DNA from: Picocystis sp. L7
Lineage: Eukaryota > Chlorophyta > Picocystophyceae > Picocystales > Picocystaceae
Assembly (NCBI GenBank): GCA_020975725.1
Contig: QXJR01000010.1
Location: 453,501-517,500, forward strand
Length of the DNA: 64,000 bases
Reading direction: 5' to 3'
Below are positions 2,303 through 12,099 of this stretch, piece by piece (the stretch's first letter is position 1; each line of letters starts with the position of its first letter). The notes under the pieces were generated by a model. The model had not been told where the DNA came from, did no database searches, and was given only the letters and a program-made list of their open reading frames with translations. The translations under genes were made by a program, and so were the position numbers.

Positions 2303-3304
2303 ATGGCGGAGCGTGGGACGTGGAGGAACGACCGCACCTCCGCACACAAGGTGCACGGGACCTTCTCCGAACAAGAGAAAGAGACGCTGAGGAACGCAGT
2401 GCACGAATACGCACAAACACACGGACTCGTGGTCGACGATCGGTGCGAATGGCTCTTCGACAAGAAAAGAAGAGGCGTGTGGAAAGAAGTGGCCAGGAAG
2501 CTGCCTGATCGAACCACCCAATCCGTGTGGGCATGCGGCGTACGCATGTACAAACAAGTGAGGAAAGGGTGAGTGGGAAGAAAGCGAATGGAAAGCGCGA
2601 ACTGCAAACAACCCATGGACGCCTTCGACTGACCGAAACAAACCGAAACGAACGAATGCAGGGTGAAGTGGACGCCGGAAGAAGACGCGAAACTCGTGAA
2701 CCTCGTCGAAAGGAACGGGAAAAAGTGGAAAATGGTGGGAGATGCTCTCGAAAGGTTCCCAGAAGCATGTCGAGATCGATGGAGAGAAATCAAGCTTGGA
2801 AGAGATCAAAAATCTGGAAAATGGACCGACGAAGAAGTCCAAAGACTGGAACAAATCGTCTTCCAAATGATACAAGAAAAGAGAATCGTTCAGGATGCAA
2901 CACAAGGAGATGAGGCAGACAACATGAGGCACCTGTTGCATGACATCAATTGGAACTTAGTGTCCGAAAAGCACGGCACCAGAAACAGCCGACAGTGCTG
3001 CCAAAAATGGTACGACATGAAAGAAACCATCGATGCAGTTGGGCCGTGGGAAACAATAAAAGAGATGGAAATGCTGGAGAACCTTGTGCAGCTTGGTGCA
3101 GAGGAAGAGTTTGAAGTTCCGTGGGACACAATGGTGGAAGACGTCTCTTCCACTGATGCCAAAAGACATTGGAAACTGCTGCAGAGGCAGATACCAAGGT
3201 GCACGAAACGAACCTTGTCTCTTGTTGGACAAGCACAGTATCTCCTGGCCGCCCGCAGAACCCAAGCACTCAAACGAGGGAAAGACACTGCTGAAAATGT
3301 TTGA
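2303..3304 (+). CDS. Reb1/TTF1-like Myb/SANT DNA-binding protein (two exons)
   Basis: Exons 2303-2568 and 2662-3304, 302 residues. The intron 2569-2661 (93 nt, GTGAGT...TGCAG) has a CTGAC branch-like site near 2629. Splicing in phase 2 joins 'MYKQVRKG' to 'VKWTPEEDAKLVNLV', recreating the consecutive Myb/SANT repeats seen in fungal Reb1 and animal TTF-1, which bind rDNA terminators and other sites. Visible units: residues about 15-85 (divergent first repeat, 'WKEVARKLPDRT'), about 88-140 ('WTPEEDAKLVNLVERNGKKW', 'EACRDRWREIK') and about 145-215 ('GKWTDEEVQRL'). The ATG at 2303 is the first after the GA minisatellite and opens on 'MAERGTWRND'. Role in Pol I termination is inferred from the family; another Myb role is possible. 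Confidence 0.82.
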
Positions 3305-4290
3305 AAGGAACAGGACAGAGACGAGATGGACGGAGGACCTCCCCCGTGCATAGCCAGAAGACCGCTGAGCTCGCAACAGCCATACCATACGCAGCATATG
3401 TCTGTTGCAGTAAGGGGCTCGAAGGAACAGATACCACTGTTCACCCTCAGGATCTTCTTCACCTCCAATGGAATAAGTTAGCCCAACACCATATGTTCGG
3501 TGCCAGGGAAAAGTAGCACGGAACGGGCTCAGCTTTTGCCGTCATCACCCATGAAGAATATAGGCCAACATCGACCGTTCAAAGGAACGATTTCGATGTG
3601 GAGGTCAGCCTCAATTTCTTTTGGACTTTCCACGTCTTAGATTGGTCTCTTGCTCATTCACTTCGACAAGTTGCTGGCAATCTCATGGAATATTCTGAAC
3701 TGGTAACTTTACCCATTCTTATCAACAAGGGTCTGTGGAAAGCCTTTCACTTGAATTTTATACATCAGCTTTCATGCACCACATCCTCTCCTATACTGGT
3801 TTGCCAACTTTTACCCATCTATTGTTGTTGCAGTCCACGTCACGATTTCTGATGCCGCCACTGGCAGCGCACCTAGACCCTATAGCTTTGTTTGCATTTG
3901 AAACACGCGCCCCGCTGCTTGCATTCCACACCTCTCACTGTTATGCTTCGATTATCGGAGTGCGTTCGAACCAGATGCCACGGTCAGGTATCTACAAAGA
4001 ATGCCTTTTCATCTCTTGCATGACACAGATGCACCAACGGAACAGGAAGGTCAGTGGAATGCAGCATTTCATTGCATGGAAAGCCAAAGTGCGTTCCGAG
4101 TCTGGAGGCTACGATCGAAAATGCCGAGTGTGTGGACGTCAGTAGTAGCAGATTTCAGGAAATGCCACTGTCGAATTTATTATCGTGGCTGATGAAACGA
4201 CGTTGCTAGGCAATAATTCTTCCAGGCAGGTATTTAATTTTCAAGTAACGATCACTTTCGTCCGTGTTTGCAGCACTCCGTCATTCTCTT
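3305..4290. other. Intergenic/3' flank, no gene supported
   Basis: Roughly 1 kb between the Myb gene stop and the DUF3253 hairpin. Short open frames exist on both strands (for example plus 3735-4145) but none shows a recognisable motif. The left part is presumably the 3' UTR of the Myb gene and the right part the 3' end of the minus-strand DUF3253 transcript. Confidence 0.5.
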
Positions 4291-4291
4291 C

Positions 4292-4350
4292 ACGCGGAAA
4301 TTCAGGCGCCCAGGACTTTCGTTTTCCCTGGAAACCTTCATAAGGTACGT
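4292..4350 (-). promoter_or_regulatory. SECIS-like hairpin in the 3' UTR of the DUF3253 gene
   Basis: Read on the minus strand, ATGA (4341-4338) is followed by 12 nt and then AAAA, and the 3' arm ends in TGAA (4304-4301). This matches the eukaryotic SECIS pattern AUGAN - 10 to 13 nt - AA - KGAW. Between the two GA cores 11 base positions pair with one mismatch (4338/4304 inward to GG/CC around a 12-nt apical loop that starts GAAAA). A short lower stem (4350-4347 with 4295-4292) sits below a 5+5 internal loop. The hairpin begins 29 nt after the stop codon at 4371-4373, where a SECIS would need to be. Found by eye; no folding program was run. Confidence 0.72.
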
Positions 4351-4370
4351 CAGTGCACGCAGTAGTCTCT

Positions 4371-4751
4371 TCAGAAACGGTTATACCTTGTACGAGCTTT
4401 CAGTTTCTGTGTTCTGGATGGATCGCAAACTTCTTGCTTGGGTTTCTCCGCTCTGCTTTTTCCTTCTATGTCTGGGTTGTCCGCCTCTCCTACCTTGAGA
4501 CGCAATCGTATGGGCCCTTTGAAGACTTTGTCTGGATCCAACTCGATTCCTTTCTGTAAGATGGCAATCTTACCTTCCCGTGCCAACTGCTTCGCGACCT
4601 GTCTGGTATCTTCCATCCGCTCCCTCCAGGCACGAGGGAAGAGTGCCCTTGGCACTTCCGAAGGTCAGCATGTTTTTCCAGGCTTACGCTTGCGCAGGAT
4701 ATGCAAGATAGCGCCTCGTATCCGCTCTTCATCTCCCGCAACCAACGCCAT
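4371..4751 (-). CDS. DUF3253-family protein with in-frame TGA, candidate selenoprotein
   Basis: 126 residues if the TGA at 4667-4665 (codon 29) is read through. The frame continues unchanged across it: 'ILRKRKPGKTC', TGA, then 'PSEVPRALFPRAW'. The rest carries the DUF3253 signature (AKQLAREGKIAILQKG, GPIRLRL). From memory, bacterial members have a conserved 'TICPSE' here, so the TGA stands at the Cys of that motif, which is how selenocysteine replaces cysteine. A SECIS-like hairpin follows the stop. The biochemical function of DUF3253 is unknown to me. The start is the first in-frame ATG; about 55 further in-frame codons upstream lack an ATG. A lightly damaged gene is the alternative, but the single TGA, the intact frame either side and the hairpin argue against it. 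Confidence 0.75.
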
Positions 4752-5284
4752 CTTTGGAGGGGTCTTCTTCCTTCCAGGCCGAACACAAGTTAACTCGTGA
4801 AGATTTTTCCACGACCATCCCAGGAGAGGTGGCTTCGAACAGAGGAGCCTCGAGGCTTGTGGCCAACCAAGCGAAAGGAATCCCAGTGCATCAACAAAGA
4901 AAAAGTACGGGAACAAGCGGGCGATTCAACATCCTTCAACATGGCCGGGTCGCGTTGAGAAGGGTGCATGTTTGATGTTTTACGGAACTCGAGGAGCCAA
5001 ACACAAATGTGTTCGTCGAAGATGTACTATCTACGAAGAACAACAAGAACGTTGTCTATAGGCCAGCCATCCATGAGGATATTCAATGCAAAAGATAGTA
5101 CGTGCCTACGGTTTGACGTGCTCTTTAGGACTTCAACCTGAATATAAAATACCCTAGTTGGCTACAATGGCCACCAAGCGTACCATCCCATGGTCTGTGA
5201 TAGTTGGAAAAGCACACATCGTAGCACCACGACGATGACATCTACGTCCCTTGCTACACCAATCATCCTATTGTGCAAGTGTGC
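4752..5284. other. Intergenic, no gene supported
   Basis: Probable 5' region of the DUF3253 gene and 3' flank of the next minus-strand gene. It is somewhat richer in A+T than the flanking coding regions. I see no motif-bearing frame. Confidence 0.5.
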
Positions 5285-6050: not shown

Positions 6051-7994
6051 ATGGCGGAGGAGCTGAAGGTGCGTCGCAAGGACCCTTGCGCGTTGTGATC
6101 CGGATGAAGCAGGAAGCATGGGATGGGCAGATCGGGGAGGGAGGACACGCGTCGGCTTAGACGCGCACGGGACGGAATCTCCATCGCAGACACTTGTCCG
6201 AAGCGGAACCGTCGGGAACCTTCGTCCACGACACGAATGGAAAATGCTTCAATGGCGCCGCTATCGAGTTCTTCCAGCGTCGGAATGTTCATCATCTAAC
6301 CAATAGCTGCCGACTCGTTGCACATGCAGGCGAAAGGGAATGAAGCCTTTGCGGCGAAACGGTTCGATGAGGCCGTGTCCTACTTCACACAAGCCATCGA
6401 TGTCGACCCGATGAATCACGTTTACTACAGCAATCGTTCGGCATCCTACGCGTCCTTGAAGCAGTACGAAAAGGCGCTGGAAGATGCGGAACTGTGCATT
6501 GCTCTGGCACCCGAATGGCCGAAAGCCTTCTCTCGTAAAGGTGCTGCACTCCACGGCCTCGGCAGGCTCGACGAAGCGAAGGAGGTATACCAGGCTGGCC
6601 TGAAACACGACCCCGAAAATGCACTGCTGAAGGAGGGCCTCAAATCCGTGGAGTCGTCAGGCAGGGCGTCTTCCAATCCTGGAAAGTCCATGTTTGACGA
6701 TCCAAGCATGATGGCCAAGATTGCGACCGATCCAAGAACCCGTGAATTGCTTCAGCAACCTGACTTCGTGGCCATGATGTCCGAAATACAAAAGGATCCC
6801 AATGCTATCAGCAAGTACCTTCAAGATCCTCGGATGATGAAAGCTCTGAGTGTGATGATGGGTATCGACCTTTCTGCCCAACCAGCAGGTAACACGGAGG
6901 AACCTCCGCCGCCAGCAGAAGACAAGATGGAGGAAGATGCTGCGCCTGCTCCAGAACCAGAAATGAGCGAGGAGGAGAAAAAGGAGAAAACCGACAAGGA
7001 GAAAGCACAGGAAGAAAAGGCCCGAGGGAATGAGTTGTACAAGCAACGGAAGTTTGAGGATGCCATCCTGCATTATAACCAGGCAATGGAGCTGGACAAG
7101 AAGGACATTTCTTACCTGACAAACAGATCAGCCGTGTACTTTGAAATGGGAGAGTACGACAAGTGCATCGAAGACTGTGATAAGGCAGTTGAGCTTGGCA
7201 GAGAGTTGAGGGCAGATTACAAACTGATTGCCCGTGCCATGACCAGGAAGGGCAATGCCTTGGTGAAGAAAGGTGACCTTGCCGAGGCCCTTACTGTCTA
7301 CGATAAGTCTCTGATGGAGCATCGGAATGCTGACACCCTCAAAAGACTGCAAGAAGTAGAGAAACAGTTGAAAGACGCAGAAGAGAAAGCATACATCAAC
7401 CCAGCTGTGGCGACAGAGGAAAAGGAGAAAGGCAATGCGTGCTTCAAAGAGCAAAAGTACCCAGATGCCGTGGCACATTACACAGAGGCAATTAAGAGGC
7501 TTGGACCTACTGGCGAGGATCTCCACAAGGTCTACAGCAATCGAGCAGCCTGCTACACGAAGCTTGGTGCGTTTTACGAGGCATTGAAGGATGCAAACAA
7601 ATGCATAGAGTTGGAGCCCACATTTGTCAAGGGGTACATCAGAAAAGGGCTGGTTCAATTTTTCATGAAGGAGTTTGACAAAGCGATGGAAACTTACCAG
7701 GAGGGGCTCAAGATTGAACCAAGCAACCAGGAGCTTCAAGAAGGTGTCCGCAAGTCCATGTTTGAGATCAACAAGGCGTCGCGTGGGGAATTGTCACCGG
7801 AAGAGCTGAAGCAGCGCCAGGACCATGCGTTGGCGGATCCTGAGATCCAGAGCATTTTGACGGATCCGGTGATGCGCCAGGTGCTGAACGACTTCCAGGA
7901 GGATCCCAAGGCAGCCCAGCAGCACGCCAAGGACCCTGGTGTGATGGCCAAGCTACAGAAGCTGGTGAATGCGGGCCTGGTCCAGATGCGCTGA
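6051..7994 (+). CDS. STI1: Hsp70-Hsp90 organizing protein (HOP/STI1), two exons
   Basis: Cytosolic co-chaperone that passes clients from Hsp70 to Hsp90. Exon 1 (6051-6068) encodes only MAEELK; the intron 6069-6329 (261 nt, GTGCGT...ATGCAG, CTAAC branch-like site near 6296) is followed by exon 2 at 'AKGNEAFAAKRFDEAV'. The product is 560 residues, normal for the family. Domains in order: TPR1 (about 1-115), DP1 ('DPRTRELLQQPDF', 'LQDPRMMKALSVMMG', about 130-190), an acidic Lys/Glu linker, TPR2A (about 230-350), TPR2B (about 365-480) and DP2 ('DPEIQSILTDPVMRQVL', about 500-555). Without the tiny first exon the start would fall at a weaker internal Met, so the spliced model is preferred. Confidence 0.95.
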
Positions 7995-11121: not shown

Positions 11122-12099
11122 TTATGGTTGTTCTTCCGATTCTTCGAATTCGTCCCATTTCTTGCCCATGATGGGATTGGGCTTCCCCTTCTGTCCTGTG
11201 GCACCCCTCCAGCCTTCGCCGGTCACCAACGAGTATCCCCAGTCGCACTGGGTCTCCACCACACAGTCGGAAAGAGGTCGTGACATGCACAAGAGAGCAA
11301 CCCCCTCTTCGATCTGTTCCGGTTCCAACACAAATTCCAGGTCGCTGACGTCGCTCTGATCCACGGTGCCTTCGACGATCCTTCCTGAACAGGTGCCACA
11401 GATACCGCCTCTGCACGTGAACGGAAGTTCCAGTCCCGCCTCGTTGCCCGCGTCCAGGAGGTAGGTGTCTGATGGCACTTCGATCGTCGTCTGTTGCCCT
11501 TTTGCACCCAAAAAAGTGACTTGGTACTTCACGTTGGGATCTCCCTTGTTCCCCTGTGGCACGACCACCATGTCCTTGCACAGCTTCATATCCTTTGCGT
11601 GCGCGAGAACCTGGCGCCGTTCTCTCCCCGATCGGCCGGTGCGTCCCTTTCCCTGACCCCAGGTGCTCTTCCACGAAATCCCAGAGACCACCATGGTCCC
11701 TCTTTCGCGACGCAGCGAAGTCTTTCCTCGTCGAAGCTCGTGCCACGGTGTCGCGGCCGCCGTGTGCCTTCCTGAGCTGCGTTTGCAGATCTCCTGTGGA
11801 TGGGGTATCCAATGAACCCCCCGTTTCAAAGGACGACTGGGTGGAAAAGCCGGTCAAGGGGTCCTTTTCATTGGACGTCTTTCTCCAGTGCAAAGGGATA
11901 GCGATCCCGCATCCAACCGAAACAATCTCAGCCTCACGTGCCAACCCTCGTCGATGTTGGAATGGAGTAAGGGCTTGCTTGGACACCGTTTGGGCGAAGA
12001 GCACGAGGCCTCGGTCCTTCTCGTCCAAGCGTCCCAAAGAAACGAGCGGACCATGGCGAGGGTGAGAAAGGAGGTGGAGGTGGTGGGCGTGTTGATCAT
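11122..12099 (-). CDS. Plastid-type [2Fe-2S] ferredoxin-like protein (two-exon model)
   Basis: Exons 12099-11938 and 11793-11122; intron 11937-11794 (144 nt, GTGAGG...CCACAG), phase 0 on both sides, 277 residues. Exon 1 begins 'MINTPTTSTSFLTLAMVRSF', Ser/Thr-rich as in a transit peptide. The ferredoxin domain ('YQVTFLGAKGQQTTIEVP') has the cluster cysteines in 'CRGGICGTC' and 'ALLCMSRP', followed by 'DCVVETQCDWGYSL'. The gap between the third and fourth Cys is 33 residues, against 29 in ordinary plant ferredoxins. There is also a C-terminal tail of about 40 residues ending in Glu-rich sequence. This suggests a FdC-type or other divergent ferredoxin rather than the main photosynthetic PetF. 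The domain is certain; the exon 1 model is an inference. Confidence 0.8.

Follow-up and report, generated by a model that had tools for sequence, protein, structure and literature searches.

Forty-two selenoprotein families have been counted in algae (PMC7539508). Three hypothetical selenoproteins are reported from Ostreococcus (PMC2375036), and another three, GOS_A to GOS_C, in PMC2398784. In some described proteins selenocysteine (Sec) lies outside the classical redox enzymes, as in the FmdB family and in methylated-DNA-protein-cysteine methyltransferase, and vicinal Cys-Sec (CU) motifs are listed for other families (PMC13188914, PMC7539508). Here we describe a gene of the alga Picocystis sp. 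L7 that resembles these cases in placing a proposed Sec outside the classical redox enzymes but differs from them in its domain, DUF3253 (Pfam PF11625), which the DUF entries in the accessible passages of the same two papers do not include. The gene very probably encodes a DUF3253 protein whose codon 29, UGA, is decoded as Sec by eukaryotic machinery with the help of a SECIS element 30 nt past the stop codon.

A Sec-containing branch of DUF3253 is apparently unreported. The initial annotation knew of no such form, and in agreement with it neither DUF3253 nor PF11625 was mentioned in the literature searched, a body of text outside which lie most subscription papers and all preprints. We saw no DUF3253 in the accessible parts of PMC13188914, PMC2398784, PMC6627142 and PMC2375036. 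As far as PMC7539508 is accessible, 'DUF' is absent from its main text and no such family stands in its abbreviation list; its DUF3253 domain apparently sets the present gene apart from the algal selenoproteins described there, which include a family named 'Hypo'. Four DUF3253 proteins run against NCBIfam matched none of its families.

A DUF3253 frame with TGA at a cysteine column

The candidate coding sequence occupies positions 4371..4751 on the minus strand of the window, by which we mean the whole 64,000-nucleotide stretch analysed. It runs from an ATG at 4749-4751 to a TGA stop at 4371-4373 and would yield 126 residues. The 127 codons read from 4751 to 4371 contain stops only at codon 29 and at the terminal TGA, and an upstream in-frame stop lies at 4928. 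With the internal TGA read through, the product matched positions 2-80 of the 81-position Pfam DUF3253 profile at 81.7 bits (E 4.4e-23), above the curated cut-off of 22.1 across the domain, which covers residues 9-85 (4497..4727, minus strand) and is modelled with confidence by AlphaFold2 over residues 11-70. The match spans the TGA, and there is neither a frame change nor any sign of an intron at that codon, just as expected from the initial annotation, which had described a single minus-strand frame with family-like sequence on both sides of one TGA. Searched in all six frames, the assembly with its 30 contigs and 20.5 Mb yielded one DUF3253 place, this gene, with a single TGA inside the domain; in the control, the genome of Caulobacter vibrioides gave a DUF3253 match.

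Codon 29 (4665..4667, minus strand), the proposed Sec codon, is embedded in the residues KTC-TGA-PSEVPR. A search with the window protein yielded eight relatives from 12 candidates, and one with an alignment yielded 1,266 at E ≤ 0.001 from 8,000 candidates scored, 120 of them listed. We aligned 124 sequences (P0002-P0125), a sample biased toward those having words in common with the query. Four sequences had no residue at the TGA column; the 120 homologues with a letter there had Cys in 119 cases and Ser in one (P0009), whereas the alga has TGA preceded by Cys. That preceding residue is Ile in 83 of the 120, Cys in 21, Leu in 13, Val in two and Met in one. Throughout residues 23-37 the candidate is equal in length to all homologues with letters, except for P0004 and P0086, which carry one or two extra residues.

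Many of the aligned homologues read SICPSE or TICPSE at this site. The family extends to Nannochloropsis oceanica, which reads TICPSE, and to Mytilus, which reads TCCPSE. Cys also occupies the TGA column in the solved chain 2NS0, a phmmer match at E 1.4e-11. The candidate shares with the family the whole domain and the CPSE-type motif, together with R50, G68, G79, I81, R82 and R84, which are invariant in 53 aligned sequences. The initial annotation gave TICPSE as the reading of bacterial DUF3253 proteins, with TGA replacing its Cys, and would have counted other residues or stops at random in close relatives against a Sec reading; the column bears out the Cys, and the Ser of P0009 is the one departure from it.

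In bacteria, none of the 56 DUF3253 matches from 54 of the 398 genomes of one phylum contained an internal stop, at least one of these matches being partial (profile 46-77) and not reaching the Cys column. A prokaryotic Sec form of DUF3253 gave no sign of itself in these 398 genomes.

Neighbouring genes in the window, named from Pfam, encode a Myb-like protein (2663-3304), an STI1/HOP-like co-chaperone (6318-7994) and a 2Fe-2S ferredoxin-like protein (11122-11829). A GA-rich repeat region at 1500-2250, with several open frames on both strands, is probably a minisatellite.

Selenocysteine machinery and the downstream element

Judged from its gene content, the genome of the alga is one that makes selenoproteins. 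A tRNA-Sec was found at 76.2 bits (cut-off 47), to which ARAGORN assigned the anticodon TCA, and four weaker tRNA-Sec matches proved to be tRNA-Ser or tRNA-Trp. Both SelD (6.4e-88) and SepSecS (3.0e-112) are present. Nothing exceeded the cut-off of the selB family model (best 183.6 versus 242.25); the best place, though, contains the eukaryote-specific domains euk_SelB_III and eEFSec_4th above their own cut-offs, which identifies it as eEFSec. For PSTK there were only weak partial matches below the cut-off. The dependence of any Sec reading on machinery encoded in the same genome had been pointed out at the start, and of that machinery tRNA-Sec and eEFSec are present.

Other genes of the assembly carry TGA in Sec-type positions. 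One in-frame TGA occurs in two of three places of the Rdx (SelW-like) family (YCVRU, YCGAU) and in four of six glutathione peroxidase (GPx) places (NVASEU). Four GPx genes lie on one strand at G000:C15:307697-313359 (L013, L014, L015, L017), three with the in-frame TGA and one with Cys there. The SelD gene (L007:1393-3669) is a frame of 758 residues in which a pyridine nucleotide-disulphide oxidoreductase-like domain precedes SelD.

Downstream of the candidate gene, in what is presumably its 3' untranslated region, lies a SECIS-like element (4290..4353, minus strand) that starts 30 nt past the stop codon. Its parts are the quartet ATGA (4338-4341), a 12-nt 5' arm (4326-4337), an apical AAA (4323-4325) in a run reading AAAA, a 3' arm ending at 4304 and a GA at 4302-4303. 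The same ATGA-N12-AAA arrangement was found in all five 3' regions read from other genes of this genome (two SelW-like and three GPx genes), and the candidate has the same spacing; in this, as in its in-frame TGA, it resembles the known algal GPx and SelW selenoproteins. Reading the region of the fourth TGA-containing GPx gene (L018) disclosed no convincing SECIS element.

How specific is this geometry? A strict scanner, built from general SECIS knowledge after the element had been seen, gave a single hit on the two strands of the window, the candidate's element, at -13.1 kcal/mol. Dinucleotide shuffles amounting to 2.56 Mb gave it 30 hits, and nine of these reached -13 kcal/mol or below. On both strands of 436,546 nt of loci the scanner returned the candidate element, one GPx element that two overlapping loci share, and a further sequence, found twice on a mitochondrial-like contig; the rest of the GPx and SelW elements escaped it. 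Relaxing the scan gained the L015 element, but at the cost of 24 hits in the window. Of the 15 ATGA-N12-AAA sites in the window, five form a helix of at most -7 kcal/mol; the candidate has the lowest energy (-13.1), followed by a site at -11.9. In 5.12 Mb of shuffles this test passed 54 sites with the limit at -7, and 11 sites got down to -12 or below. The folding energy of the 64-nt element is unremarkable (z -1.19; 29 of 200 shuffles as good).

A search with covariance models, suggested by the initial annotation as a check on the SECIS, gave a divided answer. For a model of the five other SECIS elements of this genome (R1), in which the helix suits the GPx sequences more closely than the two from SelW, the candidate element was the best match of the window, with 16 bits and E 0.12 (the next match 9.5 bits); in an unfiltered search of 1.6 kb its E was 0.0032. 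Over 22 loci the candidate, at 16 bits, ranked below the training elements (38.7-65.2 bits) and just above a background match of 13.9. With a model of the three GPx elements only (R2) it was again the best match, with 13.4 bits and E 0.28 over 95 kb, the two SelW elements being out of reach at E 10. Rfam SECIS_1, on the other hand, did not match the candidate element. This silence is weak evidence, because the same model, in a control on the five other elements, matched three below its gathering score (30.1, 26.1 and 22 bits) and missed two, of which one was hit by SECIS_5 only, at E 9.6, and the other by nothing.

Thus the Cys column, the SECIS models drawn from the alga's own genome, and tRNA-Sec with eEFSec all support the original proposal that the TGA stands for Sec. 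From these features we infer the translation itself: the eukaryotic Sec machinery of the alga would read UGA at codon 29 as Sec, its insertion directed by the SECIS element 30 nt downstream of the stop.

The assembly offered some organellar observations as well. The mitochondrial-like contig (G000:C29, L019-L028; 66% G+C) has frames that recur at a spacing of about 37 kb, also in inverted orientation, and is therefore a repeated or concatenated assembly. A plastid-like contig (G000:C30, L029-L035; 26% G+C) bears chlB, psbA and ndhB-like and ndhD-like genes; to our knowledge, green algae seldom have ndh genes in their plastids. Together with a frame that we take to be tufA-like, these plastid genes point to a green alga.

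Relatives that start past the TGA codon

Five predicted proteins (P0002, P0005, P0006, P0008 and P0126) lack the first half of the domain and start with MEDTRQ at a Met aligned with Met46, the first Met past the TGA codon; four of them (P0002, P0005, P0006 and P0008) are the 4 of 124 aligned sequences without that half. P0002, with six members on four contigs from the sources jgi and lgn, is 98% identical over the aligned part. Other relatives are about 54% identical and share the start Met; P0005 is named as an MMETSP transcript frame and has a longest contig of 2,025 nt. By eye, the more divergent P0128 also starts at the corresponding Met. Such starts are to be expected if TGA interrupts these genes too, and for relatives known as predicted proteins alone a TGA at the same codon would be the simplest cause. 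Four scans of viral contigs and one of genome contigs found no DNA of these relatives. The predicted proteins may hence serve as a warning that relatives can be cut at the same codon.

Against this background, could the gene be a decaying one, in which a chance nonsense mutation struck a conserved Cys codon? It is the sole DUF3253 place found in the assembly and its protein is known from sequence alone, as a pseudogene would allow. However, a single internal stop in 126 codons, located at the Cys column and accompanied by no other damage, does not look like decay, nor would decay account for the SECIS-like element adjoining the gene. Moreover, the relative that is 98% identical keeps the downstream frame and those at about 54% share its start Met, and we regard a pseudogene as very unlikely. 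A sequencing or assembly error concealing a Cys codon, TGC or TGT, has a smaller chance still. TGA is one third-position base away from either, yet P0002, which comes from other public data, also begins past the codon, and this argues against an error because a Cys codon would not force such a start; a chance error, besides, would not bring a SECIS-like element with it. Equally improbable is a functional protein that starts downstream, at Met46 or a GTG at 4653-4655, with the upstream half unused, since despite the Met46-aligned starts of the relatives that half carries the beginning of the domain in frame, and a product from Met46 would be without the first two predicted helices.

Predicted fold and possible redox role

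Translation of UGA as Sec would create a Cys-Sec pair, and the pair foreseen in the initial annotation is present in the sequence as Cys28 (TGC, 4668..4670, minus strand) followed by the TGA of codon 29. AlphaFold2 modelled the protein with a mean pLDDT of 78.6 and block means of 91-95 over residues 11-70. The model has helices at residues 5-21, 32-37 and 46-58 and strands at 62-66, 69-71 and 82-85, an order reminiscent of the winged helix, with its three helices and a beta hairpin after them, so that the domain may be winged-helix-like; residue 29 falls just before the second helix. On our reading, the predicted fold is not thioredoxin-like.

The position of Sec next to Cys28 suggests a redox centre, and we propose with some reserve that Cys28-Sec29, just ahead of helix 32-37 in a small domain that may be winged-helix-like, may be a fast one. 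Such a centre would react with peroxide or a disulphide and then form a Cys-Sec bond. It could switch a domain that binds nucleic acid or protein, or the whole could be a small reductase.

Bacterial gene neighbourhoods are weakly informative about function, and they are biased by lineage. In the 80 neighbourhoods analysed of 409 loci, mostly from Acetobacteraceae, Methylobacterium or Methylorubrum according to record titles, a merged DUF3253 and DUF1499 cluster was present in 66, an SbmA/BacA-like ABC transporter in 52 and an FAD amine-oxidase-like protein in 36, each cluster being named from one Pfam representative. DUF3253 may also have a link with DUF2256 and photolyase genes.

Most Cys residues that give way to Sec are catalytic or redox-active, so a Sec form provides a functional clue for DUF3253 as a whole. 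More tentatively again than for the redox centre of the algal protein, we suggest that DUF3253 may be a redox-active family of ancient origin and wide distribution, winged-helix-like in fold and with the invariant Cys as its functional centre. In the alga, and probably in a second clade of relatives, this centre would have become a vicinal Cys-Sec pair, yielding a redox switch or enzyme that depends on selenium and has a fold other than that of thioredoxin. If the Sec reading is true, the eukaryotic selenoproteome would gain one more family. Furthermore, for a family of unassigned role that extends from bacteria to mussels, the Sec form names the residue to test.
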